A stretch of DNA of 59,191 bases from Clostridia bacterium. GTDB taxonomy: Bacteria; Bacillota_A; Clostridia; Oscillospirales; CAG-272. The notes beneath the pieces are model-generated. The model saw only the letters and a program-made list of their open reading frames with translations. It was not told where the DNA came from and did not search any database. Within the stretch, counting starts at the first letter, position 1; every line of letters starts with the position of its first letter. The position numbers and the translations under genes are program-made. The DNA lies in assembly GCA_017453335.1 (NCBI GenBank), contig JAFTKI010000090.1, positions 1 through 59,191 of the forward strand, in the 5' to 3' direction. Below, one piece after another: positions 10,561 through 57,669 of the stretch.

Positions 10561-13533
10561 ATGAAGCAAGAACAGTCCGTTTTGCAAAACGCTCATCCCC
10601 CGTCTTTGCATACACGCCTGCAAAAAGCCAAGCAGCTGATAGGAATTTTTCTGACAAAATACCGGTATCTGATTCTTTGCGCGCTGCTTCCTGCCGTGCT
10701 GGTTTGGATGCTCTATATTGCAAAAGGCCATCACCCCTTCGGGGACGGTTGCGTTTTGGTGTTGGATCTAAACGGTCAATACGTTTGGTTTTTTGAAGCG
10801 TTGCGCAACTTCGTAAAAGGAGATGCCGATCTGTTGTACTCCTTCAGCCGCGCGTTGGGTGGCGAATTTCTCGGCATTTACGCCTATTACGTAGCCAGTC
10901 CCTTTTCTTTCTTGCTCGCTCTTTTTCCGAAGGAGCGGATGCTGGAAGGACTTTTAGCGCTGTTTCTCTTAAAAACGGCGATGTGCGGTTGGAGCTTCGG
11001 CTACTATATGCATCGCACGATGAAAGAAAAAAATCCGATTGCGATCATCGTCTTCGCTCTCGGATACGCAATGTCCTCGTACGCGCTGATCCAACAGCAT
11101 AATACCATGTGGATCGACGCAATGATGTGGTTACCGCTGATTACACTCGGTATCGAATCACTGATCAAGGAAGGCAGGTTCAGGCTCTACACCATTTTGC
11201 TGGCGATCACCCTGTTCAGCAATTTCTATATCGGATTTATGGTGTGCATTTATTGCGCCATCTACTTTTTCGTATACTATTTCGCACACGCCGAGAACGG
11301 AAGAAACAATCCTTTCGGTGAAACACATCACTTTCTCAAATCCTTTGGGCGGATCGCGCTGTATTCGGTCATCGCCATTGGAATGGCATCGCTCATTCTG
11401 CTATCGGCGTACTACTCGTTAAACTTCGGAAAAACGACCTTCTCCTCCCCCGATTGGTCCTGGTCGCTCAATTTTGATTTTTTGCAGTTATTTTATAAAT
11501 TTCTGCCCGGATCCTACGATACCGTTCGTCCCGAAGGTCTTCCCTTCGTTTATTGCGGCGTTTTAACCCTTCTTTTACTTCCCGTGTTCTTTTTCTCCAA
11601 GCGGTTTTCCGCGCGTGAAAAGCTTGCCGCCGCGATCTTTATCCTTGTTTTGATCTTCAGCTTTGCATTCAGCGTACCCGACTTGATCTGGCACGGATTT
11701 CAAAAGCCGAACTGGCTGAACTACCGCTACAGCTTTATGCTTTGTTTCTTCCTGTGTACGCTTGCCTGCCGTGCGTTCGGAGAGATCAAGACGCTGCCGC
11801 TCAAACCGATTCTCGGCGCCACCGCACTCATCGCCGTTTTGTGCATTGTTTTGCTTTTCACCGAGGAGAAAGACTATTTTTCACCCGATGCGCTGACCTG
11901 TATCCTGTTTACGGTTCTCTTGCTTGCGGCATATCTGACGGTCTTTGGAATTGCGCGAAAATGTACAGCAACGCAGATCATCAGCACGGTGTTGGTATCG
12001 GTCGTTTGTATAGAGGTCTTTTTGAGCGGTCTTTTCAACATGAATGCCTTTGATGCGGACGTAGGCTTCTCCAAATACAGCTATTACAACAATTTTCTTT
12101 CCAAAGCACGCCCGATCGTTCAAGCGGTACAGGAATCGGACACCTCCTTCTACCGAATGGAAAAGACCATTTCCCGAAAGGTCAACGACAATATGGCGCT
12201 CAATATCCGTGGGCTCTCGGGCTCGACCTCTACACTCAATAAAGAGACCGTTCTTTTTCTCAACAAGATGGGATATCATTCCCGAGCACATTCCTCCGCG
12301 TATTTCGGCGGAAATCCTGTGAACGATTCGTTGCTTGGCGTCAAGTATATCCTCTCCGAGGACTCGGTCTATTCCGATTATTATCAGATCTACACACAGG
12401 ATTTTGAAAACCGATATACCGCTTACTACAATCCGTATGCCCTGTCGATCGCTTACGGCGCAGACGATGCGGTTCTGGATTTTCCTTTGGGCTTTACCGA
12501 ATCGGACACAACGCTTCCCACCGAAAATATCGATCAAAGTGCCATGTCCGAGTGGCTCTCGGGTGTAAAGGATACCGTCAACGGCTGGCTGGACATTGAG
12601 GAGACCGATACCAACGCAACTTATGTCGATCCTTATCATTCTCCTTTTGAGCGCCTGAACGCAATGGTCAGCGCGATGCTGGGAGAAGAAGAAACGCTGC
12701 GGCTTTTTGTCCCGATTGAACTGACCGATACCGCGATCTCGGAAAACCTGGATGACCGCATCGACAACGGCTGTTACGCGTATATCAAGGAAAACGCCAA
12801 AAAGGACGCCTACGTTACCTATACGATACAAGTACCGAATGACGGTGAGATATTCTTCTATCTGCCGTCGGACGAGCTGCGTGAGGTCACAATGCTCATG
12901 ACCGTGAGCGGGATAGAAACCAAGCTCGGCTCGTTTGCAGGTAAGGATTCCAACGGGATCGTCGCCTTGGGCAAGCACCAAGCGGGCGACGTGCTGGAGC
13001 TGAAGCTGACACTTGAAACCGAACGGCTGTATGCCGTGATCGGCGAACACTACTTTTACTTTTTGGATATGGACGTATTTAAAAACGCCATGTCCCGTCT
13101 TGCAGAAGATCAACTGCAGATCACGAAATACACCGAGCATTCCTTTGCGGGAACCTTTCAGGCATCCCGACAAAAGGAGCTTGTTCTGACCACCATTCCT
13201 TATGATAAGGGATGGAAGATCACAGTGGACGGTCAAGCGGTTGAGCCGATCAAGGCGCTTGGCTCTGTCATCGCATTTTATATTGACGGCGAGGCGGGAC
13301 AAACACATTCGGTGGAGCTGGTCTATTCCCCGAATACGCTTTGGATCGGCTTGACTGTCTCTTTGATCAGCATCGGACTTTTGACCTCTCTCATTCTCTT
13401 CCGAAAGCATATCATGAAGATCAAAATTCTTCGTGCCGTGGTATCGGTTCCAAAGCAGCACTCCGATGACACCGTAAAAGGTCGGTTTGAAGGCGGAAAA
13501 CGAAAGAAAAAACGAAAAGCAAACTCTGCCTGA
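10561..13533 (+). CDS. YfhO family polytopic membrane protein, likely glycosyltransferase
   Basis: 990 residues. An N-terminal two thirds with many transmembrane segments (for example LILCALLPAVLVWMLYIA, IALYSVIAIGMASLILLSAY) is followed by a large extracellular domain, closed by one last segment (LWIGLTVSLISIGLLTSLILF) and a basic tail (RFEGGKRKKKRKAN). Family landmarks are GDGCVLVLDLNGQYVWFFEA, LGGEFLGIYAYY and YDKGWKITVDGQ. YfhO proteins have a GT-C-like fold, and in Bacillus YfhO decorates lipoteichoic acid. Its partner polymer here is unknown. ruvA starts 17 bp after its stop. Confidence 0.88.
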   Translation: MKQEQSVLQNAHPPSLHTRLQKAKQLIGIFLTKYRYLILCALLPAVLVWMLYIAKGHHPFGDGCVLVLDLNGQYVWFFEALRNFVKGDADLLYSFSRALGGEFLGIYAYYVASPFSFLLALFPKERMLEGLLALFLLKTAMCGWSFGYYMHRTMKEKNPIAIIVFALGYAMSSYALIQQHNTMWIDAMMWLPLITLGIESLIKEGRFRLYTILLAITLFSNFYIGFMVCIYCAIYFFVYYFAHAENGRNNPFGETHHFLKSFGRIALYSVIAIGMASLILLSAYYSLNFGKTTFSSPDWSWSLNFDFLQLFYKFLPGSYDTVRPEGLPFVYCGVLTLLLLPVFFFSKRFSAREKLAAAIFILVLIFSFAFSVPDLIWHGFQKPNWLNYRYSFMLCFFLCTLACRAFGEIKTLPLKPILGATALIAVLCIVLLFTEEKDYFSPDALTCILFTVLLLAAYLTVFGIARKCTATQIISTVLVSVVCIEVFLSGLFNMNAFDADVGFSKYSYYNNFLSKARPIVQAVQESDTSFYRMEKTISRKVNDNMALNIRGLSGSTSTLNKETVLFLNKMGYHSRAHSSAYFGGNPVNDSLLGVKYILSEDSVYSDYYQIYTQDFENRYTAYYNPYALSIAYGADDAVLDFPLGFTESDTTLPTENIDQSAMSEWLSGVKDTVNGWLDIEETDTNATYVDPYHSPFERLNAMVSAMLGEEETLRLFVPIELTDTAISENLDDRIDNGCYAYIKENAKKDAYVTYTIQVPNDGEIFFYLPSDELREVTMLMTVSGIETKLGSFAGKDSNGIVALGKHQAGDVLELKLTLETERLYAVIGEHYFYFLDMDVFKNAMSRLAEDQLQITKYTEHSFAGTFQASRQKELVLTTIPYDKGWKITVDGQAVEPIKALGSVIAFYIDGEAGQTHSVELVYSPNTLWIGLTVSLISIGLLTSLILFRKHIMKIKILRAVVSVPKQHSDDTVKGRFEGGKRKKKRKANSA

Positions 13534-26334: not shown

Positions 26335-28560
26335 TTATGAAAATCCACGCAGGATGTTGTTGACACCGTTGAGCGAGCGCAAACGCGAAACGATCGAATT
26401 GCAGTGATCGATATTTCGGCAGCCAACCATCATATTCACGATAGAGCTTCCGTCGCTCTTGTAGGACACATTGATCTGCAGGATCGAAACACGCATATCG
26501 GCAAGCGCCGTTGAAATATCGGCAAGCATGCCGATACGGTTATCGGCATGGATCTGCAGCAGTGCCTCATACATGCTCTGGCTGTCTCCGTGTGTTTCGG
26601 AAGCCTCCCAATGCGCCTCCTTCCAGCGGTCGGCGTTTTCGGGATTGTTTCTGCTCTGCACCACATTGGGACAGTCAAGCTTATGGATCGAGATTCCGTA
26701 GCCCTTGGTAACGAATCCGATAACCGAATCTCCCGGCAAGGGATTGCAGCACCGCGCAAACTTGACCATGCAGCCTACCTCTCCGTCCACGATAATACCG
26801 CTGTTCGACTTAACGTTTCGCGGCTTGCTGCTTGTTACGATTTTTTGAGGCTCGGGAGCCGCGATCGGCTCAACGACCTCGGGCTTAATGATATCGGCAC
26901 TTTCTTCCTGCAAGCGACGCGTTACCTTTGCCATGCTTACGCCGCCATAACCGATGGCGTTGTAAAGATCCTCCGCGCTGTTAAAGCCCATGCGCGCACC
27001 GACCGCGCTGACCACCTGGTCGCGCTGTGCATCGGTAAAGCTTTTGGAGATCTTTTTAAGCTCAGACTCCACCGTTGCCTTACCGACCTGAATATTGTCG
27101 GTTCGCTTTTCCTTTTTGAACCAAGCACGGATCTTGGAGCGTGCCGCACTGGTCTTTACGATATTCAGCCAATCTCGGCTGGGACCGCGCGAGGCGTTGG
27201 AGGTCAGGATCTCCACGATCTCGCCGTTTTCCAGTGTTCGATCGATCGGAACGATCATGCCGTTGATCTTACCGCCGATCATCTTATCACCCACCGCCGA
27301 ATGGATGGCATACGCGAAATCGATCACGTTTGCACCGTTCGGAAGCGCGATCACATCGCCCTTAGGCGTAAAGACAAAGACCTCATCATGGAAGATATCG
27401 GTCTTGAGCGCGTTCATAAATTCATCGGGATCGCGTTGGTCGTCCTCGGTCTCGATCAGGCGGGCGATCCACTCCAGCTTGCGATCCATTTCTTCCTTGG
27501 AGGAGCTACCCGATTTGTATTTCCAGTGCGCTGCGATACCGTATTCGGCAATATGGTGCATTTCCCGGGTACGGATCTGCACCTCAAACGGAATACCGTC
27601 GCGTCCGATAACCGTTGTGTGCAGAGAGCGGTACATATTGGGCTTTGGCGTGGAAATATAGTCCTTGAATCTGCCGGGGATCGATTTGAACATTTCGTGA
27701 ATCAGTCCCAGTGCCGTATAACATTCCAGCTCGGTATCCACGATGATCCGCATCGCGTAAAAGTCATAGATCTGATCAAAGGACTTGTTCTGCGAATACA
27801 TCTTCTTGTAGATCGAATAAACCGATTTGATGCGTCCCTCCAGCGTGAAATGAATATTGTTCTCACGCATCTTCGCATCAACCAAGGAGCGCACGTTTTC
27901 AATAAATCCAACGTTTTGTCCGTACTTCTCCTCGATGTGGTTGTGAACCTCGTGGTATCCGATCGGATCGAGGAATTGCAAGCCCAGATTCTCCAACTCC
28001 TGCTTGATACGCTGCATACCGAGGCGGTGTGCCAAGGGAGCATAGACCTGCATGGTTTCCAATGCGGTGATACGGCGCTTGTTATCGGGCTTTACCGACA
28101 GGGTTCGCATATTGTGCAATCGGTCGCACAGCTTGATAAAGATCACGCGAACATCGCGCGACATGGCAAGCAGCATTTTGCGCAGGTTCTCGATGTGTGC
28201 CTCTTCTTTATCCTCCACCTTCAGCACGACCATCTTGGTCAGTCCGTCCACCAAAAGCGCCACGGTCGGGCCGAATTTTTTCTCCACCTCGCGCAGATCG
28301 GTTTTTTCGGAGCAATCCTCCACCGTATCATGCAAAAGTGCGGCACAGATCGAATCGGTATCCAATTCGAGTCCTGCTACGATCTCGGCAACTGCAATCG
28401 GATGCGAGATATACGCTTCTCCGCTTACACGGAACTGTCCCTCGTGCAGCTCGCGTGCATATTCGTATGCCGCCGTGATCTTTTCGGTATCGTATTTTTT
28501 TCCTGTTGCCCTCAGAATATCCAGCAACCTTGTAATATCGGTATGTACGTTGTCACTCAT
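26335..28560 (-). CDS. relA: Bifunctional (p)ppGpp synthetase/hydrolase RelA/SpoT
   Basis: Makes and degrades the alarmone (p)ppGpp. About 741 residues. Order: HD hydrolase with ISHPIAVAEI and LLHDTVEDC (intact, so hydrolysis likely); synthetase with DFYAMRIIVDTELECYTALG and PKPNMYRSLHTTVIG; TGS domain (VFVFTPKGDVIALPNGANVIDFAYAIHS); zinc-finger domain (FARCCNPLPGDSVIGFVTKG); C-terminal ACT. The second ATG was taken because AAAGG is 8 nt upstream. The usual apt gene between recJ and relA is absent. Confidence 0.96.
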   Translation of the reverse strand: MSDNVHTDITRLLDILRATGKKYDTEKITAAYEYARELHEGQFRVSGEAYISHPIAVAEIVAGLELDTDSICAALLHDTVEDCSEKTDLREVEKKFGPTVALLVDGLTKMVVLKVEDKEEAHIENLRKMLLAMSRDVRVIFIKLCDRLHNMRTLSVKPDNKRRITALETMQVYAPLAHRLGMQRIKQELENLGLQFLDPIGYHEVHNHIEEKYGQNVGFIENVRSLVDAKMRENNIHFTLEGRIKSVYSIYKKMYSQNKSFDQIYDFYAMRIIVDTELECYTALGLIHEMFKSIPGRFKDYISTPKPNMYRSLHTTVIGRDGIPFEVQIRTREMHHIAEYGIAAHWKYKSGSSSKEEMDRKLEWIARLIETEDDQRDPDEFMNALKTDIFHDEVFVFTPKGDVIALPNGANVIDFAYAIHSAVGDKMIGGKINGMIVPIDRTLENGEIVEILTSNASRGPSRDWLNIVKTSAARSKIRAWFKKEKRTDNIQVGKATVESELKKISKSFTDAQRDQVVSAVGARMGFNSAEDLYNAIGYGGVSMAKVTRRLQEESADIIKPEVVEPIAAPEPQKIVTSSKPRNVKSNSGIIVDGEVGCMVKFARCCNPLPGDSVIGFVTKGYGISIHKLDCPNVVQSRNNPENADRWKEAHWEASETHGDSQSMYEALLQIHADNRIGMLADISTALADMRVSILQINVSYKSDGSSIVNMMVGCRNIDHCNSIVSRLRSLNGVNNILRGFS

Positions 28561-28599
28561 TGTCATTGCCTTTCTGCCGAGCCGATTGGCCCGACCGGT

Positions 28600-30798
28600 T
28601 TATGATTTTCGTAACTGTGTTTTCAATTTTCGTAAAATAGAGGATTTCTCGATGCTTGTCTTCGCGCTCTGATAGCGGAATTCAAACAAATAGGTATCGG
28701 GTACGGGCTCGGTGATCTCGCACAGCTGTAGCTCCTGCATAATGCGGATCATGAATTTCAGCTTGATGTAATTCAGCTCCCCATATCCCAGATTATGCAT
28801 CATCGAAAGAAGTCGACGCATGGAAAACACGGTGTGTCCCGCGCGAAACTCACGCCGCAGTGCCGTGTAGACCGCCGCCATATCATCGCGGCACGGCAGA
28901 ACAGCTTCCTCCTCGGTATACTCCGCTCCTGCGCGGATCTCCTCATATCGTTTTATGTAGGCCGCATATTTGGCTTCATACGACTGTGCGTAATGCACGT
29001 CCTGCACCAGCATCTGCAAGGAAACGATATTCTGATATTCGTTGATATTCAACTGGAAGAGAACATCGATCAGGTCGCCAATCTCAAAGGTCATCTGTGC
29101 GCCTCCAACGCCGAACCAGACAGCACTGATTTCACGTCCGTTTTTCTCCAGGATCAGCTTGGTGTGCTTTCCGCCCCCCAGCGTGACCACACGCACGATC
29201 TTCATGTCTCTCAGGATCAGATTCGGGATCGGATTGGAGATACCAAACGGCTCCATTGCCGTGATCTCCTGCGCCAGATGCATCGTCAGATCCGACATTT
29301 CCACTTCTCGGTCGGCATCCAGACTGACGCAAAGGCGATCCTCGGTCAGATGCTTTGCGGCGTATTCGTTGATCTTTTTGCGAAAAGCGTCAATATTTCC
29401 GCGTACAATGCTCAAGCCTGCCGCCAGCTCGTGTCCGCCAAAGCGCACCAGAAGATCCTCGCAATCGACCAGCGCCTCCACCAGATTCATGCCCTTGATG
29501 CTTCGTCCCGAGCCCTTTCCAATGTCACTTTCCGAGGGCGCACCGTTGATTGCTCCGTCAAAGGAAATTAAGATCGACGGCAAGCCGTATCGTTCGGTAA
29601 TGCGGGACGAAACGATCCCGATAATTCCCTGTTGCCAGGTATCGGCATCAATCACGATCACGCGGTCCCTCTGAGAATCCAGCGTTTGCTCGATCTTTTG
29701 ATAGGCTTCCTCGGCAATGCGGTTTTCCTCGATCTGCCGCTGCAGGTTCAATTCACAAAGCTCGTCTGCCAAGCGCTCCGCAACGTCGGAACGATCTGCC
29801 AACAGCAATTCCACAGCAGTTCCCGCGTTGCTGACTCTGCCTGCCGCGTTCATACGCGGAGCAATGGTAAATCCGATAAAGCCGGAATTGATCTTTCTTT
29901 TTTTCGCACGTTTGCCGGGTTCGCTCGTTTTTGTTCCCGCAGCCGCCTCCATAAGGGCCTTCAAACCGGGACGTTCGGTCTTCTCCAGCATCTGAAGTCC
30001 CAATGTCACGATCAAGCGGTTTTCATCCACCACCGGCATCACGTCCGCAATCGTTCCGATCGCCACAAGATCGGCATATTCCGTGCAAACCTTACGAACA
30101 CCGTTTATTTCGGGGATTCCGTTCTTGCGGCATTCTGCCATTTCATAGGCGCAGATCAGCTTAAATACCACGCCAACACCCGCCAGCTCCTTAAAGGGAT
30201 ATGTATCATCGGCACGGTGCGGATTGATCACCGCTGCCGCCGTTGGTAGAATCTCTCGGCACTCGTGATGGTCGGTAACGATGGTTTCGATTCCTTGCGC
30301 GCTTGCATACTCGATCTCATCAATTGCGGTAATTCCCGTATCGACCGTGATCATCAATGAAACACCGCGCTCCTTCAATCGATCGATCGCCGCGTTGGAA
30401 AGCCCGTACCCCTCGCGCATACGGCTGGGGATATAATAGCCAACATCGCCTCCGTGTGCGGTCAGATACAAATACAGCAAGCTGACCGATGTTACGCCGT
30501 CCACGTCATAATCGCCGTAAATCGCGATCCGCTCGTGACGTTCAAGTGCCAAAGCAAGGCGATCCACCGCCGCCTGCATATCACACATTCCGTACGGATC
30601 GTGCAAGCAAGCGGTGTCCTGACGGAAAAAGGACTCGACCTGTGCCTTTGTGCGATATCCGCGCGTATAAAGCAGACTTGCCATAATTTCCGACAAGCCT
30701 GTCTCCGTCGCCAACGCGCGCACAGCCGCATCTGTCTGTACGTTACCGGGGCAGTATTTTAATGACCATTTTTTTTCTTTTTTGATCTGATTTGTCAT
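28600..30798 (-). CDS. recJ: Single-stranded-DNA-specific exonuclease RecJ
   Basis: 5'-3' ssDNA exonuclease in repair and recombination. About 732 residues. DHH-phosphoesterase motifs: IYGDYDVDGVTSVSLL, ITVDTGITAIDE, IVTDHHEC; DHHA1 segment GIVSSRITERYG and GSGRSIKGMNLVEAL, FGGHELAAGLSI. The C-terminal OB domain and extra tail match Bacillota forms. The start was set at ATG 30796-30798 with GAGG 6 nt upstream. Confidence 0.95.
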   Translation of the reverse strand: MTNQIKKEKKWSLKYCPGNVQTDAAVRALATETGLSEIMASLLYTRGYRTKAQVESFFRQDTACLHDPYGMCDMQAAVDRLALALERHERIAIYGDYDVDGVTSVSLLYLYLTAHGGDVGYYIPSRMREGYGLSNAAIDRLKERGVSLMITVDTGITAIDEIEYASAQGIETIVTDHHECREILPTAAAVINPHRADDTYPFKELAGVGVVFKLICAYEMAECRKNGIPEINGVRKVCTEYADLVAIGTIADVMPVVDENRLIVTLGLQMLEKTERPGLKALMEAAAGTKTSEPGKRAKKRKINSGFIGFTIAPRMNAAGRVSNAGTAVELLLADRSDVAERLADELCELNLQRQIEENRIAEEAYQKIEQTLDSQRDRVIVIDADTWQQGIIGIVSSRITERYGLPSILISFDGAINGAPSESDIGKGSGRSIKGMNLVEALVDCEDLLVRFGGHELAAGLSIVRGNIDAFRKKINEYAAKHLTEDRLCVSLDADREVEMSDLTMHLAQEITAMEPFGISNPIPNLILRDMKIVRVVTLGGGKHTKLILEKNGREISAVWFGVGGAQMTFEIGDLIDVLFQLNINEYQNIVSLQMLVQDVHYAQSYEAKYAAYIKRYEEIRAGAEYTEEEAVLPCRDDMAAVYTALRREFRAGHTVFSMRRLLSMMHNLGYGELNYIKLKFMIRIMQELQLCEITEPVPDTYLFEFRYQSAKTSIEKSSILRKLKTQLRKS

Positions 30799-30898
30799 TT
30801 TCATCCTCAAAACTGCCCATCCAACCTTATGCCTTATGACGCAGCCTTCTATACTCTCTTTTTTCTCTTTTCTTTTTGTTGTAATTACTCGCGCGGTA

Positions 30899-48005: not shown

Positions 48006-49262
48006 TTATTTTCCCTCGTACGGTGCGCCAAGAATCACAGAAACATTTCTTTGTGTTCCATAGCGAATAATCGTAATGGTGACGCGGTCTCCTGCACGGT
48101 ATTGGTACAAAAGCTCCTTCAATTCGTCCATCGAGTTAAACGAGGTCTCATCGATCGCAACCATGATATCACCCGCCTTCAACACTCCGTAAGACGCGCT
48201 GTTGGTCTGTACGGAGGAGATCAGAACGCCGTCTGTCTCTGCGGTATAGGTGCGGTTGTTAACGGTGTAGCACTCTCCTTCAAGGATATCAGAACCCGAA
48301 ATACCGATGTTGGGACGGGTTTTGGAAATCGAAGAAACTACGTTTTTCGCGTGTCCGTCGCTGATGATCGTATCAATGATCTCGATACATCCGTTGATCG
48401 GAAGCGCCAGACTGAGTCCCTCGCTATCGATCATCTTTCGAGACACGATACCAACCACCTCACCTCGCAGATTGCAGATCGGGCCGCCCGAGTTGCCGGG
48501 GTTGAGAGCAGCATCGGTCTGGAACATGGACACTTCATAATGCTCGTAGGTGCCTTGAACCGTGATCTCGCGGTTCAGTGCCGAAACGATTCCCTGCGTG
48601 GTCGTCCAGGGAGCCTCGATTCCCAAGGGATGCCCCACTGCAACCAAGGTTTCTCCCACACGCAGTGCATCGGAATCCCCGATCGAAAGCGTAGGATAGT
48701 TATTGCCCTCGATCTTCAGAACCGCAACGTCATCCGCAACGGTATATCCGATCAGAGTTGCTCCCAAGTTTTCGCCTGAGGTGAGCGTTACCTGAATGTT
48801 GGTCGCCCCCTCAACGACATGATAGTTTGTGGCAATATATCCGTTCGAACGAACGAAGAATCCCGTTCCGTAGCTTCCCGAGCCATTCTCAACCGTTGCC
48901 GTGATAAAGACGGTTCCAGGGATCACCGATTCGGCAACCTCTGCCACGCTCATATCTGTTTCTGCAGGATCGGAAGCGGGCGAATTCTCGTTCCAGATCA
49001 TAACACCGATCAACAGTGCAATGCAAACGGCAAACGCCAATATCATCACAATGGCAAAGGTGATCGGTCCGCGCTTTTTTTCCTTCTGTTTGTTTTTCAG
49101 ATCAAACGCGCTCTGATCGGCATAGCTCCATCGGTAGGTATACGAATTCTCGGTATTTTCCGCATTATTTTGCGGAGGCTGCATAACAGGCTGTGTCAGA
49201 TTTGCATCGACACCGACTTCTCTTTCGAAGCCATCCTGCGGCATCTTATCCTGTTGATCCAT
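48006..49262 (-). CDS. htrA: HtrA/DegP-type membrane-anchored serine protease
   Basis: Envelope quality-control protease. About 418 residues from ATG 49260-49262, which overlaps the kinase stop. A Gln/Asn-rich cytosolic start, one transmembrane helix (about 68-90), then a trypsin-like domain with H148 (TNYHVV), D178 (ADDVAVL) and S258 (NPGNSGGP), and a C-terminal PDZ domain (DGVLISSVQTNSASYGVLKAGD). It follows a response regulator and histidine kinase, which probably control it. Confidence 0.93.
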   Translation of the reverse strand: MDQQDKMPQDGFEREVGVDANLTQPVMQPPQNNAENTENSYTYRWSYADQSAFDLKNKQKEKKRGPITFAIVMILAFAVCIALLIGVMIWNENSPASDPAETDMSVAEVAESVIPGTVFITATVENGSGSYGTGFFVRSNGYIATNYHVVEGATNIQVTLTSGENLGATLIGYTVADDVAVLKIEGNNYPTLSIGDSDALRVGETLVAVGHPLGIEAPWTTTQGIVSALNREITVQGTYEHYEVSMFQTDAALNPGNSGGPICNLRGEVVGIVSRKMIDSEGLSLALPINGCIEIIDTIISDGHAKNVVSSISKTRPNIGISGSDILEGECYTVNNRTYTAETDGVLISSVQTNSASYGVLKAGDIMVAIDETSFNSMDELKELLYQYRAGDRVTITIIRYGTQRNVSVILGAPYEGK

Positions 49263-50773
49263 TATGAATCCTTTCCAGTTCCCTTTTCGATTCGGTGTTG
49301 CTGTTCCCCGGTGTACGGTGCTCGCGGAAGCGTAAAGGAAAACTCGCAGTTCTCCCCGGGGACACTCGACAAACGGATCTGTTCCCCGTGTGCTGTGATG
49401 ATGGTCTTGCAAATAAACAAGCCCAATCCCACTCCCGTTTTGTCCAATCCACGGCTCTTATCGCTCTTATAAAAGCGTTCGAAGATCATAGGCTGATCCT
49501 CATACGGGATTCCCGCTCCGTCGTTATAAATCGAAATACGGATCTTTTTATCTTTTGAGGTCACGATGCGGATACGAAGCACTCCCTCATGCCGTGAAAA
49601 CTTCACCGCATTGTGACAAATATTATAGAAGACTTGATAAATGGCATCGCGGTCGGCAAGAACCGTCAGACGGTCCTCCTCACACTCAAAGCGAACATCC
49701 AGGTGCTTTTCCTCGATCTTTTGCTCAAACGAGATCAGGATCAGTCGCGCCATCTCACATATATCAAACGGAACCATCGTAAATTTACGGTCTCCCGCCT
49801 GAAGCCGTGACAGATCCAACAGCGAGGATACCAATCGGGAGAGCCGATGGACCTCCATCGAAACCACTTCCAGATAATGCGGCTGTTCCTCCGGCGGGAT
49901 CACACCGTCGCGGATGCTGTCGATGAAGCCCGCGATGGTTGTCATGGGAGTTCTCAGATCGTGCGAAACGTTGGCAATGAACGAATTTCGCATGGTTTCC
50001 AGATTTTCAAGCGATTCCGCCATCTGATTGAACGCCTTGGCAAGCTCGGCAACCTCATCCCGGCCGCTCACTCGCACGCGCGTTTCAAATTTACCCGATG
50101 AAAAATCTCTTGCGGCGGTTCTCATTTCACGCATCGGTGCAACCGTTTTCTCGGTGATGAAATATGCGGCGATCATCGATGCCAGAAGAACCAAAATCGC
50201 AGAGGTAATGATGGTTTTGGAAAGCTCCTCCACAGTGTTTCCACGGTGGATATTCGAACCGAAAACCGTCACGATTCCGCAAAGCTCCCCCTTTTCGTTC
50301 AGAACTCCAACCGCGCAAAAGGAAATATCATCTCCTCCGGTCTCGCTGTCAAGATCGGCTGAAAAGGACTCTCCTGCCTGCAAATTCGGCAAATTCTCAC
50401 GAAGCTGATCGTCAAGACTCGGCATTTGCGTGGTCCAATCGCCTCCGAGGATCGTATAAAGCTCCTCACCCGTCGGGCTCATCACCGAAATCGCCAGATC
50501 GTCGTCACGGTCGGCAAACTCGTTCAAGAGATTGCAAACGTGATCCCGACCAACCGATTTCAAAAGCGTGGCTGCCTCGATTGGGTTGGAATCGTATACC
50601 GTAGCCTCCAGAGCAACACGGGTGGCTCCCGCCGCGTTTTCCATCACGTTCCGCTTGGCCGTTGCCGAATAGTTGTTAACGATCGACGTAACGATCAATA
50701 GCAGCAACGCAAAGCCGAGCGTGATGATGACCATAAATACCGTCACGTATTTTGCAAATACACTTTTGAACAT
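49262..50773 (-). CDS. Sensor histidine kinase, partner of the htrA operon
   Basis: 503 residues. One N-terminal transmembrane segment (FMVIITLGFALLLLIVTSIV), an extracellular sensor domain of about 130 residues, a second segment (IITSAILVLLASMIAAYFI), HAMP, then H-box FIANVSHDLRTPMTTIAGFID, N-box YNICHNAVKFSR, and G-boxes NDGAGIP and TGVGLGLFICK. It likely senses an envelope signal. Starts 26 bp after its regulator. Confidence 0.93.
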   Translation of the reverse strand: MFKSVFAKYVTVFMVIITLGFALLLLIVTSIVNNYSATAKRNVMENAAGATRVALEATVYDSNPIEAATLLKSVGRDHVCNLLNEFADRDDDLAISVMSPTGEELYTILGGDWTTQMPSLDDQLRENLPNLQAGESFSADLDSETGGDDISFCAVGVLNEKGELCGIVTVFGSNIHRGNTVEELSKTIITSAILVLLASMIAAYFITEKTVAPMREMRTAARDFSSGKFETRVRVSGRDEVAELAKAFNQMAESLENLETMRNSFIANVSHDLRTPMTTIAGFIDSIRDGVIPPEEQPHYLEVVSMEVHRLSRLVSSLLDLSRLQAGDRKFTMVPFDICEMARLILISFEQKIEEKHLDVRFECEEDRLTVLADRDAIYQVFYNICHNAVKFSRHEGVLRIRIVTSKDKKIRISIYNDGAGIPYEDQPMIFERFYKSDKSRGLDKTGVGLGLFICKTIITAHGEQIRLSSVPGENCEFSFTLPRAPYTGEQQHRIEKGTGKDS

Positions 50774-50799
50774 GATAGTCTCTCAAAGAGGAAAAGAGA

Positions 50800-51492
50800 T
50801 CAATTCAACAGCTCGAATTTGTAGCCTACACCCCAAACCGTTTTCAGGATCCATTTATCGGAAACGCCCTCCAGCTTTTCGCGCAGACGCTTGACATGAA
50901 CGTCAACCGTTCTGGAGTCGCCCAGATAATCAAAGCCCCAAACCTTATCCAAAAGCTGATCTCTGGTAAATACGCGGTTGTAATTGGATGCCAAGAAGTA
51001 CAAAAGCTCCAATTCCTTGGGCGGAATATCCACCGATTTACCGCGAAGCTTCAGCTCATACTTCTGCAGGCTGATCTCGATATTTTCAAATTTGATCACT
51101 TCCTCGTCGTTCTTGTGCGAGTGTGTCTGATAACGGCGAAGAACCGCCTTCACACGCGCGGAAAGCTCCTTCATATCAAAGGGCTTTACAACGAAGTCGT
51201 CCGCTCCCAGCTCCAGTCCGAGAACCTTATCGAACACCTCGCCCTTTGCCGTGATCATGATCACAGGCTTGGAGGACATTTCGCGGATCTCGCGGCAAAC
51301 CTGCCAGCCGTCCTTTTTGGGCAGCATGATATCCAAGAGAACCAGATCCGGCTCAAAGATCTTGAAGAAGCTCAAGCCCTCTGCTCCGTCGGAGGCCGTT
51401 TTTACATCGTATCCTTCTTTTTCGAAATAGACCTTCAATAGGTCGCTGATGTTGGGATCGTCGTCCACAACAAGAATTTTGGTATCCGTCAT
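50800..51492 (-). CDS. OmpR/PhoB family response regulator
   Basis: 230 residues. Receiver with VVDDDPNISDLL, phospho-acceptor in LVLLDIMLPKKDG, Lys in VVKPFDMKEL; C-terminal winged helix with PPKELELLYFLASNYNRVFTR and RTVDVHVKRLREKL. First gene of the regulator-kinase-htrA operon. Confidence 0.95.
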   Translation of the reverse strand: MTDTKILVVDDDPNISDLLKVYFEKEGYDVKTASDGAEGLSFFKIFEPDLVLLDIMLPKKDGWQVCREIREMSSKPVIMITAKGEVFDKVLGLELGADDFVVKPFDMKELSARVKAVLRRYQTHSHKNDEEVIKFENIEISLQKYELKLRGKSVDIPPKELELLYFLASNYNRVFTRDQLLDKVWGFDYLGDSRTVDVHVKRLREKLEGVSDKWILKTVWGVGYKFELLN

Positions 51493-51640: not shown

Positions 51641-51669
51641 ATTATATCATAAAATTGAATAAATTGCAA
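51641..51669 (-). promoter_or_regulatory. Sigma-A promoter of the htrA-operon regulator
   Basis: Minus strand: TTGCAA (51664-51669), 17-bp spacer, TATAAT (51641-51646). Leader of about 140 nt. Confidence 0.65.
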
Positions 51670-51776
51670 ATGGTTTTAGAACATTTTTTGGATTTTTTAT
51701 AGATTTTTTGCATATAGCTTGTTTCTCACTTTATTTGAGGTCTTTTAAGTCAAAATTGAAAAGTTTTAAGGAACAC

Positions 51777-51809
51777 AAAAAAGAAGGAACCGCGCTTTGC
51801 AATTCCTTC
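51777..51809 (-). terminator. Terminator after the second histidine kinase
   Basis: Minus strand: GAAGGAA pairs with TTCCTTC, followed by TTTTTT. It closes the VTC/DUF4956 module. Confidence 0.8.
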
Positions 51810-51823
51810 GTGAGTATATTATT

Positions 51824-53062
51824 TTACAACACAACCTTAAATCCGATATGCGCGCTGTCCTTTTTGTATGCCGTGATCTCGCCCTTGTGCTTTCCCACGA
51901 TTGCTTTTGCCATAGAAAGTCCAACGCCGTAGCCACCCGTGAATTTTCTTGCCTTATCCGCACGGTAAAAGCGGTCGAACAAACGGTTGAGTTCAAGTTC
52001 GCCAACAGCGGCATAGGTGTTTTCAACGGTTAGAACAATTCGTCTGCCTCGGTGGAGTGTTACGCTGATCTCTCCGTCCTGATCGCAATACTTGATGGCG
52101 TTATCCATCAGAATACCGACAAGTCGGTGCAAAAGTGCTTCGTCCCCAAAATAGGAAATTTCTTTATCAACGCTTGCGGTAAGCAGTTTTCCCCGTTCCC
52201 TTGCAAGCGGCTCAAATTCCGAAACGGTATCGTCAACAAGCTCACCAAAGGCAACCTCGGTAAGGTTAAGAGACTTTCCCTCCTCGTCCATACGGGAAAG
52301 AGCGACGAGTTGATTTACAAGCTCTGCCATACGCTGTCCCTCGGAACGAATATCGTCAAGCCATTCGTTTTTGCCAAGCTCTGCCTCGGCAATATCAAGG
52401 TTTGCAAGAATTAAGGTCAGCGGGGTTTTCAGCTCGTGGTTGGCATCGGTGATAAACTGCTTTTGCTTTTCGTAGCTCTCGGCAATAGGCTTTACAACAC
52501 GTCCCGAAAGCAGAATAATGAGCAGCAGCACAAGTGCGGCGCATCCGAGCAGAACAAAGCCTGCAATCGTCATAGACTGCATCAGAGAGGAGCGATTCAT
52601 ACTGCCGTCAACAAACACAACGCCTTTGCCCATATCGGTGGAAAATATTTTGTAACGATAGCTGGATATCCACCCTCTCTCAGCGTCATCCTTCATTACC
52701 TTCTCGGCGTATTCGATTGCCGTTTCCTCGGTGATCGAATAGATAGCGTCGGTATTGGTTTTCGCCACCTCTCCGTTTTGATCAAAAAACACGGTAAAAT
52801 GGCGCGTTGAAAACGGAGTTTCGGGGGTTATAAATGCAAAGTCCTGTTCATTTCTCTGCGGTTCTTTATCGGGATGCGGCTTTTCCTCCACAGAGCCGGG
52901 AAATCTGCCGCCGCCCTCGGATACTCTGTCTGCGAGAATATCCATATTTCGGTTCATCGAGGATATATTGAGGGCGAGGATAATGCCGAACATCAAAGCA
53001 ATCACGGAAAAAATCGCCACGGTGCTTATCAAAATAAATTTACGCCTGAGTCTATATATCAT
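51824..53062 (-). CDS. Sensor histidine kinase of the VTC/DUF4956 module
   Basis: 412 residues. Two transmembrane segments (LISTVAIFSVIALMFGIILAL and IAGFVLLGCAALVLLLIILL) flank an extracellular domain of about 120 residues with a charged, proline-rich start. H-box DANHELKTPLTLILANL, N-box LMDNAIKYC, G-box GGYGVGLSMAKAIV. It overlaps the regulator stop by 4 bp and is followed by a terminator. Confidence 0.92.
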   Translation of the reverse strand: MIYRLRRKFILISTVAIFSVIALMFGIILALNISSMNRNMDILADRVSEGGGRFPGSVEEKPHPDKEPQRNEQDFAFITPETPFSTRHFTVFFDQNGEVAKTNTDAIYSITEETAIEYAEKVMKDDAERGWISSYRYKIFSTDMGKGVVFVDGSMNRSSLMQSMTIAGFVLLGCAALVLLLIILLSGRVVKPIAESYEKQKQFITDANHELKTPLTLILANLDIAEAELGKNEWLDDIRSEGQRMAELVNQLVALSRMDEEGKSLNLTEVAFGELVDDTVSEFEPLARERGKLLTASVDKEISYFGDEALLHRLVGILMDNAIKYCDQDGEISVTLHRGRRIVLTVENTYAAVGELELNRLFDRFYRADKARKFTGGYGVGLSMAKAIVGKHKGEITAYKKDSAHIGFKVVL

Positions 53063-53733
53063 ACGGTCTCCTCCAGCATATATCCTGCGTTACGCACAAA
53101 TTTGATTGTCACGGGAGCAGAAAGCGCGTCAAGCTTTTTGCGAATATTGGAGATATGCACCCATACCACGCTTGTGTCAACGCTTGTATCCCATCCCCAA
53201 ATATGCGTGATCAGTTGCTCGGCGGTTACAATGCCGCTTGGATTGCGCATCAGCATTTCCATCACTTGAAACTCCTTGCCGCTGAGTGCTTGAGTGCGAC
53301 CGCCATATAAAAGCTCGTAGGTAGAACGATTGAGCGATAGCGCACCAAAGGTTAGCAGATCGGGAGTAAAATTGTCTTTTCTCCGAAGCATCGCGCGGAC
53401 ACGGGCAAGAAGCTCGCCCGTGGAAAAGGGCTTTGGGAGATAATCATCGGCTCCCGCATCAAGCCCTTCAATCCGTTGATCAATCTCGGTTCTTGCCGTC
53501 AAAAAGAGCGCTGGTGTTGTAATGCCGCTTGTACGGAGTTTCTTCAGTAAGGTCACACCATCCATTCCGGGCATCATAATGTCAAGCACAAGTCCGTCGT
53601 ATTCGTCCGAAGAGGCAAAGTCGAAGGCATCTATGCCGTTATCCACGCCGTCCACCGCATAATGATTCAGTTCAAATATATGCACAATGCTTTTGAGCAA
53701 TTTCTGATCGTCCTCGGCAATTAAAATACGCAT
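53059..53733 (-). CDS. OmpR family response regulator of the VTC/DUF4956 module
   Basis: 224 residues. Receiver with IAEDDQKLL, phospho-acceptor in LVLDIMMPGMDG, PKPFSTGELLARV; winged helix with GKEFQVMEMLMRNPSGIVTA and VWVHISNIRKKLDAL. It has its own promoter but sits directly after the lipoprotein gene. It is the best candidate to bind the direct repeats before the VTC gene. Confidence 0.94.
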   Translation of the reverse strand: MRILIAEDDQKLLKSIVHIFELNHYAVDGVDNGIDAFDFASSDEYDGLVLDIMMPGMDGVTLLKKLRTSGITTPALFLTARTEIDQRIEGLDAGADDYLPKPFSTGELLARVRAMLRRKDNFTPDLLTFGALSLNRSTYELLYGGRTQALSGKEFQVMEMLMRNPSGIVTAEQLITHIWGWDTSVDTSVVWVHISNIRKKLDALSAPVTIKFVRNAGYMLEETV

Positions 53734-53767
53734 ATTTACGCCTCCTTTCCATTCTCATAATGTAATT

Positions 53768-53796
53768 ATTATATCACAAATGATCTGTTGTATCAA
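53768..53796 (-). promoter_or_regulatory. Sigma-A promoter of the second regulator-kinase pair
   Basis: Minus strand: TTGATA (53791-53796), 17-bp spacer, TATAAT (53768-53773), 35 nt before the start. Confidence 0.7.
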
Positions 53797-53806
53797 GTTG
53801 ATATTG

Positions 53807-55939
53807 TTAATTCCAAGCTACGCCGTTTTCATCAAGTGTAACGCTTACCGAGGACTCGATACCAATGCTCGGAGAGCTGTCCCCAAGCACGATCACGTAT
53901 GCTGACATCGACATTGGAATTTTAACCGTTGCCGTCTGAGCTCCGATGCCGACAATCAAGTAACCGCCCAAGGATAACGAGGCAGATGTTGATTCGCCTA
54001 TGCTTGTAAAGTTTTTGCAGTTCTTTGCTTCACTCAACATACCGCCTTGCGGCATAATGGCAATCACCGAGCCCCCTTTGTAATCATAGCCTTGCTCGGT
54101 ATCGATTGCGGAGTTTCCTCCCGAAGTGGAAATAACGACCGTGTTACCGCCCGAGAATACAATTCCTTGATAGGACGTACGGCTGTTCGAATCGATGCCG
54201 TCACCGCTGCAATAGATATACAAAGTGCCTCCGCTGACAGCAACTGCCGTTCCCGTTGTAGTGGTTGCGTTTACGCCATCATCCTTGGCATTGACCGAAA
54301 CGTAACCGCCCGAAATATTGACGGTCGTTCCTTCTATGCCCTCATAGGAGTTGGTCACGCTGACCGTACCTGCGGTAACCGAAAGCGTGCCATCTGCGTG
54401 AAGGCCGTCATCGTTTGAGTAAACTGTAACAGTACCGCCGTTTACCGTCACATTTCCAAGCGGTGTTGCACCGGTTTCAAGCACAGTATCGTTGTTTGCG
54501 TGAATAGCGTCATCGTAGGATTTGATATTGACTTTTCCTGCGTTGATCACGATCTCGTTTGCCGCCTTGATGCCTTTGGTGGAATATTCCCCCTTATCGG
54601 TGTTGCCTTCGCCCATACCGCCGGGACCGCCCATACCGCCATCGCCCGGACGGCCTCCACCAAAACCGCCCTCTTGGATATTTGTGGTATAGTTCGTCCA
54701 CTGATAGCTCAGCCCATTGTATGATTGTGTTAACGCAAACGTGTCGTATGCGCTATTCTGAGTCAGATATTCGGAGGAAACAAGGCATTCCTCCTCTTGA
54801 CCGCGCTGTGCCTCGGCTTTGTAAATAAAAAACTGTACCTTTGCATATTCGGGCATTTTGGAATAGGAATAGTAATAATAATTATTTCGGCTGCCGGAAA
54901 CCTTGGAATGATATTCCGCATTCACCCAAACATAATCGGTGTCGGAATTGTAATACTTTACGGAGAAATAATATTGGTTGCTCGTAAAGCGGATATAGTT
55001 AGTGTCCGATGCGGTTGCCGTTACCTCTTTTGAATAGTTGGAGTATTTATCAGTGTAGATATTCAACACGGTACTGCTGTCGTCGATGCTGACATTATAA
55101 GCCGCATCGATTCCGTCGCAAGCGGCGTAAAGTGTATGCGTTCCGCCCGCAATACTGATCGTTCCGCGCTGATTGCCTTTTTCGGATATATCGCTGTTCG
55201 AGGTTTTAATGCAATCCCCTGCCGATGCGATCAAGGTTGTCTTTCCTCCCGTGATCTCGACACTGTCGTTGCCCTTAAGCGCGTTGTCAATGCATACCAC
55301 AAGGAGTGTGAGATTTTTGACTTGTAAATCATCTTTCGAGTGAATCCCGTTGTTATTCTCGGAGATGACGGTAAGCTCGCCCTTGCCGCCGATTTCAAGA
55401 TCGACATCGGAGTGGATCGCGCCCGAATAGAGCGTTTCATCGGTTGAATCGATTGCCGAACGCATATCGTAAATATAATTCTTGGTGTCCTTTTTTACTT
55501 GCACAGCCACCTCGTCACCGCTTTTTACGAGGATGGGATTTGCCGAGTTACACACAAGAGAAAATCCGTGAAGCTCCAAATCGAGCTTGTGTCCTTCTCC
55601 AACGTCAACTACAATATTCCCTCTGAGCTTTCCCGAGATCGAATAGATCGAATCTTCGGCAATTGCCGTAAAAGTCAAAGTAGTTCCCTCAAGCTTGTAT
55701 GCCTTGTCCGTTCCCGAAACACATTCAACCACGATATCTGTGGCTTCACCGTCAAAATATCCCTCGTATGCGCCAAGGCTGTCAAGAGATTCGCCAAAGG
55801 TCTTGCTGTCATCACCGAGGTCGGCAACATCCCCTTTGGTTTCCGGATTGGTGTAGCCTTCGTTTTCTCCCGATTCATCGCCGCAGCCCGTCAGCATCAA
55901 AACGAAACACAATAATATTGCAAAAAATCTGATTTTCAT
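53807..55939 (-). CDS. Cthe_2159-like beta-helix carbohydrate-binding lipoprotein
   Basis: 710 residues. Signal peptide with lipobox LMLTGC (lipid on C19). Two beta-helix blocks of repeated turns: GNDSVEITGGKTTLIASAGD and NNNGIHSKDDLQVKNL in the first half; GTVTVYSNDDGLHADGTLSV, GGYVSVNAKDDGVNA and GGTLYIYCSGDGIDSN in the second. These D/N-D-G turns match the Cthe_2159 family, whose founder binds acidic plant polysaccharide. A glycine-rich stretch (GGGRPGDGGMGGPGGMGEG, about 425-445) separates the blocks. It faces outward; the ligand here is unknown. Confidence 0.85.
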   Translation of the reverse strand: MKIRFFAILLCFVLMLTGCGDESGENEGYTNPETKGDVADLGDDSKTFGESLDSLGAYEGYFDGEATDIVVECVSGTDKAYKLEGTTLTFTAIAEDSIYSISGKLRGNIVVDVGEGHKLDLELHGFSLVCNSANPILVKSGDEVAVQVKKDTKNYIYDMRSAIDSTDETLYSGAIHSDVDLEIGGKGELTVISENNNGIHSKDDLQVKNLTLLVVCIDNALKGNDSVEITGGKTTLIASAGDCIKTSNSDISEKGNQRGTISIAGGTHTLYAACDGIDAAYNVSIDDSSTVLNIYTDKYSNYSKEVTATASDTNYIRFTSNQYYFSVKYYNSDTDYVWVNAEYHSKVSGSRNNYYYYSYSKMPEYAKVQFFIYKAEAQRGQEEECLVSSEYLTQNSAYDTFALTQSYNGLSYQWTNYTTNIQEGGFGGGRPGDGGMGGPGGMGEGNTDKGEYSTKGIKAANEIVINAGKVNIKSYDDAIHANNDTVLETGATPLGNVTVNGGTVTVYSNDDGLHADGTLSVTAGTVSVTNSYEGIEGTTVNISGGYVSVNAKDDGVNATTTTGTAVAVSGGTLYIYCSGDGIDSNSRTSYQGIVFSGGNTVVISTSGGNSAIDTEQGYDYKGGSVIAIMPQGGMLSEAKNCKNFTSIGESTSASLSLGGYLIVGIGAQTATVKIPMSMSAYVIVLGDSSPSIGIESSVSVTLDENGVAWN

Positions 55940-55954
55940 AACATTCTCCCCGTA

Positions 55955-56644
55955 TCAAAGCTCCGCTACGTGCGTTTCTTGCTTTGATACCATAATTTCA
56001 AGATTTCCGTTGCGCTCACGGATGCGGTCGATCATCTGTTTTTCACGAGTTGCATCCTTGAGCGTTACGTTATATGTAAGGCGGAACATACTGCCCATGT
56101 TGGTGGTCTTGACCTTGATCAATTCGCTTTTCTTCGTATACTCGGCAAAAATATCGTCAAAAACACCTGTGTAATCAAGATCCTCCGGAATCGTAATTTT
56201 AATTGTTTTGTTAACTGCCTCACTCTTTGAGTTTCCTGCCAAAGCATTGTAGACAAGGAACATCGCACACATGATCACGGTAAAAAGCACGGCAAAGCCG
56301 AGATATCCCATACCCGCGATCAGTCCCGCACCCATCGCAAGAAAAATGGTGACGATCTCTTTTGCGGAGCCCGGCGCGGAACGAAATCTAACGAGGCTGA
56401 ACGCGCCTGCCACCGCAACACCCGCACCGATGTTGCCATTGACCATCATAATAACAACGCAGACCACGGCAGGCAAAAGTGCCAATGTGACAAGAAAGCT
56501 CTTTGTATGTTCATTTCTGAACATATAAGCCGCCGCCATGATCAATCCAAGAAAGAGTGACACACCAAGGCAGAGCAGAAAATCCTGCACGCTTATGGTT
56601 TGTGTCAGCTCGGCATCGAAAATACCCTTAAATATTGCATCCAT
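55955..56644 (-). CDS. DUF4956 membrane protein
   Basis: 229 residues. Four or so transmembrane segments (FLLCLGVSLFLGLIMAAAYM, FLVTLALLPAVVCVVIMMV, FLAMGAGLIAGMGYLGFAVL) surround the family signature GAFSLVRFRSAPGSAKEI. A cytosolic C-terminal domain of about 90 residues follows (KITIPEDLDYTGVFDDIF, MIDRIRERNGNLEIMV). Its start overlaps the VTC gene by 17 bp, so the two are translationally coupled. Role unproven; a membrane conduit or anchor for the VTC enzyme is likely. Confidence 0.88.
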   Translation of the reverse strand: MDAIFKGIFDAELTQTISVQDFLLCLGVSLFLGLIMAAAYMFRNEHTKSFLVTLALLPAVVCVVIMMVNGNIGAGVAVAGAFSLVRFRSAPGSAKEIVTIFLAMGAGLIAGMGYLGFAVLFTVIMCAMFLVYNALAGNSKSEAVNKTIKITIPEDLDYTGVFDDIFAEYTKKSELIKVKTTNMGSMFRLTYNVTLKDATREKQMIDRIRERNGNLEIMVSKQETHVAEL

Positions 56645-57380
56645 TTGTAATGATCTCCTTATGTTTCATTGAATTTTGGAAATAGATTTCGGGAAATATC
56701 TGCGTGCTGTACGCCGTTCCGTATTTTGAAAACGAGGTCTTATAGATCCGCTCACGGGATAATACCTCCACCATCCAAAGCGGAATACCGCCCGAGCATT
56801 TCAGTTCCATCAGTACCTTGCCTTCGGGAAGGATCGGCTCACCGTAAACAGACGAGCAAAGGTTCACGTCGGTCCCGCGGCAGAGTATGTTATCATCAAA
56901 GGTTACTCGAAAATCACCGCCGCCCTTATCATAATAAGCTTCTCGCTCATAAGAGAGAAACACAGTAGGCTTTAGTTTTCCGTAAAAGTCAATGAAATAA
57001 TCGATCTCACGGGAGATCTGCGTATCAAACGGACATGCTTTCTCTCGGCACACCCACGCCACAGCATCCTGTTCGCACAGCGGAAGTCTGCGCTTGTAAA
57101 CCACTTTATCGTATTTCTTTTTCAGCTCTACGAACACCGTGCTATCGGCGGCCGCTTGCGAATAACTCCGTATTCGCAGCTTTTCTTTGTAGGCAGGCTT
57201 TTCAATTGAACGCCTGATCAGTCTGTAATTGTCGGTATCAAGGTAAATATTCCGTATTGTTGTCCGTCCGTATTTGTCAAGTGCCATATACGGAGACATC
57301 GCGGTCTGTATCTTTTCTTTTTGTTCAAGTGTCAACAGATATTTCAGCTCGTATCGTTTGAACACCGTGACAAACGCCAT
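56628..57380 (-). CDS. VTC domain polyphosphate-polymerase-like protein
   Basis: 250 residues, whole length a triphosphate-tunnel (VTC) domain. Tunnel residues expected to hold phosphate and metal are in RYELKYLL (E11, K13), KEKLRIRSY (R69, R71), VFVELKKKYDK (E85, K87), YKRRLPL, LSYEREAYY, VLMELKCSG (E192, K194) and KTSFSKYGTAY. In yeast Vtc4 this fold makes polyphosphate from ATP. No SPX domain or membrane segment is present; the DUF4956 partner may supply the membrane part. Start has AAAGGAGG upstream. Confidence 0.88.
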   Translation of the reverse strand: MAFVTVFKRYELKYLLTLEQKEKIQTAMSPYMALDKYGRTTIRNIYLDTDNYRLIRRSIEKPAYKEKLRIRSYSQAAADSTVFVELKKKYDKVVYKRRLPLCEQDAVAWVCREKACPFDTQISREIDYFIDFYGKLKPTVFLSYEREAYYDKGGGDFRVTFDDNILCRGTDVNLCSSVYGEPILPEGKVLMELKCSGGIPLWMVEVLSRERIYKTSFSKYGTAYSTQIFPEIYFQNSMKHKEIITNGCNI

Positions 57381-57411
57381 CCGATCCCCTCCTTTCGCAT
57401 TTTACAAGGAG

Positions 57412-57444
57412 ATTGTATCACGGCTCGCTAAAGATAGGCTAAAG
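57412..57444 (-). promoter_or_regulatory. Promoter of the VTC/DUF4956 operon with two 11-bp-spaced direct repeats
   Basis: Minus strand -10 TACAAT (57412-57417). The -35 position (about 57435-57440) is a poor match to TTGACA and is overlaid by two identical plus-strand GCTAAAG copies at 57427-57433 and 57438-57444, start to start exactly 11 bp. OmpR-family activators bind such one-turn-spaced repeats beside a weak -35. A larger inverted repeat (TTCTC, GCAGGC / GCCTGC, GAGAA; 57470-57506) lies further upstream. Confidence 0.6.
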
Positions 57445-57578
57445 AAACCACACTTTATATTTTATTTTGTTCTCAAAGCAGGCAAAATTCCGCCTGCTCG
57501 CGAGAATAAAACGGCTTGTCAAGCACACATAATCCGAGTTTTTTTCTTTAAAAAGGAAGATAAATTAGAGAAGAACTA

Positions 57579-57607
57579 TTGAAAAATCCATACCACTATG
57601 ATATAAT
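57579..57607 (+). promoter_or_regulatory. Sigma-A promoter of ychF
   Basis: TTGAAA (57579-57584), 17-bp spacer, TATAAT (57602-57607), about 62 nt before the start. Confidence 0.7.
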
Positions 57608-57669
57608 AAATCAAGTATGTTAAAAAATATGGAAATAAAAGCCCCAAACATAAAGGAGATCAAAATAAA

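Follow-up and report, generated by a model that had tools for sequence, protein, structure and literature searches.

The locus studied here raises the question of what a stand-alone triphosphate-tunnel enzyme of the VTC family does in a Clostridia bacterium (assembly GCA_017453335.1), where its gene lies beside those of a DUF4956 membrane protein, a large lipoprotein and a two-component system. The window, i.e., the whole stretch of 59,191 nucleotides analyzed (contig JAFTKI010000090.1), carries these five genes on the minus strand, in the order VTC, DUF4956, Cthe_2159 lipoprotein, OmpR-type response regulator and histidine kinase. The initial annotation, made from the letters alone, had proposed that they form one module, and the open reading frames, the Pfam matches and the conserved neighbourhood bear this out; the coordinates also reproduce the 17-bp overlap of VTC (56628..57380) with DUF4956 (55955..56644) and the 15-bp gap to the lipoprotein gene (53807..55939) that it described, followed by the regulator and kinase genes. 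We give an even chance to the explanation that VTC and DUF4956 constitute a membrane-coupled polyphosphate polymerase serving secreted partners. The strongest new result is that every one of the 98 surveyed genomes having both VTC and DUF4956 also has at least one of two secreted families, CotH or Cthe_2159.

The pairing was followed in two sets that are mutually non-independent. The locus set (n = 86) consists of the window, five plasmid loci and the best 80 of 537 confirmed VTC places from an alignment-based scan of GTDB contigs, while the genome set comprises 196 genomes of the same class, plus 14 control genomes, with tallies made at an E-value of 0.001 (over the curated cut-off were 78 of 79 for CotH, 76 of 77 for Cthe_2159 and 98 of 100 for DUF4956). 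DUF4956 starts less than 400 bp from the VTC end in 84 of the 86 loci and less than 1 kb from it in the other two. Among the 196 genomes, VTC was present in 101, DUF4956 in 100 and both in 98, the three VTC genomes without DUF4956 being G100, G125 and G162. Counted by place, DUF4956 is directly downstream of VTC on the same strand at 116 of 127 VTC places and upstream at one, and the ten that remain include several partial matches. The neighbourhood of the module is thus conserved across genomes, and CotH and Cthe_2159 genes are found among the neighbours. Both VTC and DUF4956, counted as present or absent, were matched in the same three of the 14 control genomes (Bacteroides ihuae, Corynebacterium glutamicum and Methanosarcina acetivorans), and therefore the two families go together in other phyla and in an archaeon. 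On plasmids, the order is regulator-kinase-VTC-DUF4956 in Acetoanaerobium and VTC-DUF4956-regulator-kinase-CotH in Enterococcus faecalis, and a Pseudobutyrivibrio plasmid has CotH-VTC-DUF4956 within a polysaccharide cluster. Note that 7 of 124 DUF4956 matches lack a VTC gene within 1.5 kb, four of the seven being below the family cut-off, and that one unpaired DUF4956 (G104:C13:49222-49677) has a Cthe_2159 match about 0.7 kb upstream.

Natural fusions of the two proteins also occur. With the joined window VTC and DUF4956 as a query, 24 of the 120 matches listed were single proteins having both domains, and among 13 fusion sequences examined six were apparently intact, with VTC followed by DUF4956, whereas seven were frameshifted or truncated. 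The intact ones come from about four lineages, as judged by eye. Such fusions hint at a possible contact between VTC and DUF4956, but they are weakened as evidence because the two genes overlap out of frame, so that an indel can fuse them.

The secreted partner in the window is a lipoprotein of 710 amino acids with the lipobox LTGC, three Cthe_2159 (PF14262) stretches and a Gly/Met-rich insert, which scores 215.7 bits against a cut-off of 25.8 and matches PDB 4peu with an E-value of 9e-20. Cthe_2159 itself binds acidic polysaccharide. The repeats of the window protein belong to this same family, but the protein differs from Cthe_2159 in its length, its three matched stretches, its lipobox and its operon with VTC-DUF4956. 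A Cthe_2159 gene lies within 4 kb of VTC in 74 of the 86 loci; in L089, L090 and L115 it is upstream rather than downstream of VTC, and therefore the gene order is not fixed. Two CotH seeds gave no tblastn match at an E-value of 1e-6 in positions 39191-59191 of the window. Over the 127 places, CotH was found within 6 kb of VTC in at least 53 (a count from 66 CotH rows, mostly chosen by contig) and Cthe_2159 near VTC in at least 34 (a count by eye), and, judging by contig, none was seen with both families near the same VTC, where 14.2 would be expected. Three genomes (G058, G035 and G181) have three VTC places each, with CotH next to some of them and Cthe_2159 next to others.

At the genome level, 98 of the 101 VTC genomes have CotH or Cthe_2159, versus 12 of the 95 without VTC (odds ratio 226). 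The proportion reaches 98 of 98 when VTC and DUF4956 are both required, because the three VTC genomes without either secreted family are precisely those without DUF4956. Two other surface domains, used as controls, showed little bias (Big_2, 70/101 vs 54/95; SLH, 70/101 vs 58/95), and the association of VTC with CotH or Cthe_2159 persists within SLH-positive as well as within SLH-negative genomes. As for the control genomes, the three with VTC all have CotH or Cthe_2159, and Bacillus subtilis alone among the other 11 has either.

The VTC protein (PF09359, 250 amino acids) scores 139.9 bits against a curated cut-off of 23, and VTC is its sole Pfam family at an E-value of 0.01, with neither an SPX domain nor a Vtc1-type membrane domain. 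Its gene is preceded by a ribosome-binding site AGGAGG (57388..57393, minus strand), read from the sequence. The tunnel pattern of Glu, Lys and Arg, which had been described as intact, is so: across 84 sequences, window included, conservation reaches 97% or more at 15 residues (R9, E11, K13, R69, R71, E85, K87, K96, Y144, R146, R158, E192, K194, S218 and K219), and ten of these pair with Vtc4 K200, R264, R266, K281, K294, Y359, R361, R373, E426 and K458. In particular, the catalytic R264, R266 and E426 of Vtc4 have R69, R71 and E192 as counterparts in the window, the alignment score being low in the stretch opposite E426/K458. Structure search with the model of a relative placed Vtc4 nearest, well above other tunnel families, and Foldseek returned the same VTC entries as the other search; the residues compared and the fold both agree with Vtc4. 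These features suggest that the bacterial VTC is a polyphosphate-making enzyme, with polyphosphate as its probable product.

The DUF4956 protein (PF16316, 229 amino acids; 58.5 bits against a cut-off of 30.6) has four predicted membrane helices (19-41, 48-69, 94-111 and 115-136), a conserved loop holding R86, F87, R88 and S89 (RFRSxxG) and a C-terminal ACT/ferredoxin-like domain at about 144-222. Folded singly, it reached a mean predicted local distance difference test (pLDDT) value of 69, and the R86/R88 loop is poorly modelled for this reason; the structural matches listed by VIA-align covered the C-terminal domain only, to which the fold likeness is limited. While the window protein gave no match to MgtC (PF02308) at an E-value of 10, two of its relatives scored 22.2 and 21.6 bits, below the cut-off of 31.4, with weak similarity over nearly the whole length and a common layout of membrane helices followed by an ACT-like C-terminus. 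DUF4956 is distantly related to MgtC and ends in an ACT-like domain. It shares the helix layout and the C-terminal domain with MgtC/SapB, but it stays under the MgtC cut-off, has its own loop around RFRSxxG and in the surveyed class stands nearly always beside VTC.

Control of the operon by a two-component system, as proposed in the initial annotation, is supported by a candidate site at the VTC promoter, namely an OmpR-family-type box made of the direct repeat TCTTTAGC-cta-TCTTTAGC with an 11-bp spacing (57427..57445, minus strand; copies at 57445..57438 and 57434..57427), which we take to be similar to a PmrA box. Allowing up to 3 mismatches, the window contains this box once (shuffle mean 0.04). 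By our own reading, a -10 element TACAAT (57412..57417, minus strand), with a TG one base before it, follows 9 bp past the repeat without a good -35 hexamer, and a consensus promoter scan listed no promoter at this site; a promoter with a repeat but without a normal -35 would be of the kind seen in activator-dependent promoters. When direct repeats upstream of VTC were searched at spacings of 8 to 15 bp (at least 7 of 8 bases matching, 20 shuffles), spacing 11 was found in 44 of 83 loci against a shuffle mean of 4.0 and a maximum of 6. Spacings 9, 10 and 13 were found in 10, 13 and 11 loci (shuffle maxima 9, 9 and 10), far under spacing 11, and only 18 of 335 regions upstream of non-VTC genes in these loci had an 11-bp repeat. 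Between loci the repeat letters vary and the spacing is kept; plain k-mer enrichment upstream of VTC gave no such signal, being swamped by A-rich words.

The regulator genes near VTC suggest a candidate binder for this repeat. The OmpR-type response regulator (224 amino acids, 53059..53733) and the sensor histidine kinase (412 amino acids, 51824..53062; no HAMP match, and an N-terminal part without Pfam match) overlap by 4 bp, both being assigned by Pfam. In 48 other loci, VTC has within 6 kb a regulator closer in sequence to that of the module than to the second regulator of the window, and the repeat is somewhat commoner with a regulator near (31/49) than without (13/34; p 0.028), which is consistent with the neighbouring response regulator being its putative binder. 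Of the 48 loci with at least 5 kb available on both sides, 32 have the regulator and 32 the kinase within 6 kb (42 have Cthe_2159), and therefore the two-component pair is common, not universal; the binned-match assignment of kinases to either window kinase was uninformative and was not used. In addition, the 73 bp between the lipoprotein and regulator genes hold a sigma-70-like promoter TTGATA-17-TATAAT with TG (53768..53796, minus strand; 11 of 12 positions matching, a consensus match only), so that the regulator pair may be transcribed separately.

From these results, VTC and DUF4956 would together make up a single polyphosphate polymerase coupled to the membrane. In it, the tunnel domain of VTC would sit at the inner face of the membrane and join ATP phosphate into a chain, like Vtc4, while DUF4956, with its four MgtC-like helices and cytosolic ACT-like domain, would contact VTC, anchor it to the membrane and tune it through a ligand, and possibly pass the chain across the membrane through the conserved arginine loop. 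The product would then serve the secreted partner specific to each locus, the Cthe_2159 beta-helix protein here, perhaps by binding to it, and the CotH kinase-like protein elsewhere, and in the window the OmpR-type pair would turn the operon on via the 11-bp repeat. The initial annotation had read the module as making an anionic polymer like polyphosphate, moving or anchoring it at the membrane and linking it to the lipoprotein under envelope-signal control; its neighbourhood and its tunnel residues and fold hold and the control is supported by the repeat, whereas polymer making, export and lipoprotein binding are what we infer.

Parts of this arrangement are known from other systems. According to passages of PMC7112168, the Pel operons of streptococci and clostridia carry accessory genes for CotH, a poly-phosphate polymerase, DUF4956 and DUF4832, and bifidobacteria have a variant; in PMC12345266, as far as its excerpts go, SIR_1592 of Streptococcus intermedius (cassette SIR_1591-1594) has four MgtC-type transmembrane segments and an ACT domain, as the window DUF4956 does. 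The earlier view that no such bacterial system had been described must therefore be narrowed, since these excerpts already place CotH, the polymerase and DUF4956 together in Pel operons, whereas no description of the version with Cthe_2159 and a two-component pair was found in the open-licence literature. The window and the Pel cassette both have VTC and DUF4956 side by side, but the window has the lipoprotein and the two-component pair instead of adjacent CotH or pel genes, and the flanks examined (YchF, a second two-component pair and a protease) show that it is not contiguous with pelDEADAFG. According to the excerpts of PMC12345266, its authors did not find the three-gene arrangement outside Pel. 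In our survey PelG was over the cut-off in 10 of the 196 genomes, and the idea that the cassette belongs to Pel was rejected, as PelG was not matched in 92 of the 101 VTC genomes. By coordinate comparison, PelG is near VTC at five places (G026:C15, G056:C80, G122:C10, G128:C3 and G199:C4) versus at least 53 for CotH, and therefore Pel is one setting of a cassette that is general. The eukaryotic VTC complex (Vtc4/Vtc3/Vtc1; PMC9911596) has the same tunnel fold and catalytic residues and likewise ties the enzyme to a membrane portion in which basic residues are conserved, but in the bacterial system SPX is missing and a distinct protein, MgtC-like and with an ACT-like domain, provides the membrane portion. 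In Clostridium perfringens NELoc-2, the passages of PMC2879425 and PMC11677781 give two genes for VTC, with a membrane-located protein of 222-226 amino acids encoded after each, and CotH near a glycosyltransferase; this locus differs from the window in its CotH type and duplicated pair, Cthe_2159 not being named in these passages, and its 'tubulin/FtsZ GTPase' is likely a DUF4956 protein.

Several observations weigh against a polymerase serving secreted partners. The genome associations ignore phylogeny and operon adjacency accounts for part of them, and G125 and G162, in which the VTC match is weak or partial, say little. The model of a natural VTC-DUF4956 fusion had good domains (mean pLDDT 84.5) and a predicted template modelling score of 0.54, with no usable interface, and no assay of a bacterial VTC was found in the open-licence literature. 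The repeat was not seen in 39 of 83 VTC upstream regions, and 34 of 83 loci have no regulator of the module type within 6 kb, for both of which short contigs may explain part. Moreover, the excerpted results of PMC12345266 report that the S. intermedius polyphosphate polymerase mutant (SIR_1593) still aggregates and makes Pel, with no significant change reported for it, and therefore the VTC product may not matter there, while deletion of SIR_1592, the MgtC and ACT protein, increased Pel and decreased aggregation. These phenotypes fit a DUF4956 that removes or restrains the VTC product, which would accumulate without DUF4956 and be absent without VTC, and they equally fit an independent role of DUF4956. 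The same excerpts treat MgtC as a regulator of ATP synthase and PhoR, not as a channel. Finally, PPK1 is not avoided by VTC genomes (42/101 vs 25/95 in the others; expected 34.5, p 0.035). The candidate explanation that VTC simply replaces PPK1 was rejected on this co-occurrence slightly above expectation, though 59 of the 101 VTC genomes are without PPK1; among seven genomes picked from VTC loci, one (that of L082) has PPK1.

The regulatory description of MgtC in those excerpts, together with an ACT-like fold suited to ligand sensing, would also agree with a DUF4956 that is anchor or regulator only, its ACT-like domain sensing a metabolite, while polyphosphate stays as a cytosolic store and the secreted proteins share the regulon only; the genomes without PPK1 could then have VTC as their storage enzyme. 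We consider this somewhat unlikely, since storage needs no CotH or Cthe_2159, yet one of them is present in all genomes with both VTC and DUF4956, often adjoining the pair. The tunnel enzyme might rather act on another phosphorylated substrate (e.g., a nucleotide or a lipid-linked precursor) to modify a surface polymer, with polysaccharide loci as its true context, given that the tunnel fold is also found in triphosphatases and adenylate cyclases and that VTC occurs in the Pseudobutyrivibrio cluster and, in the passages of PMC7112168, in Pel operons. The structural match to Vtc4 well above other tunnel families, the compared Vtc4 basic residues that are kept and the rarity of PelG, which prevents Pel from being the general context, make this quite improbable. 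It is more improbable still that VTC-DUF4956 is a true pair to which the Cthe_2159 protein and the two-component system are lineage neighbours without shared function. The replacement by CotH at many VTC places, the absence of the regulator pair in 16 of 48 well-flanked loci and the promoter-like site of the window pair itself would agree with it, but Cthe_2159 is near VTC in most loci, the repeat at the VTC promoter is commoner with a regulator near, and the genome-level co-occurrence is unlike that of two generic surface domains.

Around the module, the upstream flank is a divergent ychF and the downstream flank is the second two-component pair followed by a trypsin-like protease with a PDZ domain (48006..51492, minus strand; regulator 51492..50800, HAMP kinase 50773..49262), which together look like an envelope-stress operon and may function as one. 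A terminator-like hairpin with a T tail lies 3′ of the kinase gene (51783..51809, minus strand), a weak indication given 7 such sites in the region versus a shuffle mean of 6.8. Farther away, the window encodes a RelA/SpoT-type protein with an ACT domain (26335..28566, minus strand), adjoining a RecJ-like DHH protein (28600..30810), and a 990-amino-acid YfhO-family membrane protein (10561..13533, plus strand).

To our knowledge, no phosphate source outside the cell has been described for secreted kinase-like proteins such as CotH, and we know of no role shown for bacterial VTC enzymes. The pairing and the 98 of 98 co-occurrence join these two problems into one testable system, beyond the Pel setting. 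A bolder proposal, which we regard as unlikely though worth stating, is that VTC-DUF4956 serves widely among bacteria as a machine for making and exporting polyphosphate, and that secreted Cthe_2159 and CotH kinase-like proteins need this polymer as an extracellular phosphate donor or anionic ligand where ATP is scarce; such a dependence would be the reason why all 98 genomes carry a secreted family. Bacillus subtilis, the sole control genome with CotH but without VTC, would fit this proposal, and its CotH acts in the mother cell. Altogether, our observations hint at phosphate chains for cell-surface use in many gut bacteria, and, if true, VTC-DUF4956 would represent a second bacterial route to polyphosphate, coupled to the membrane and serving surface clients of its own, in common gut Clostridia.

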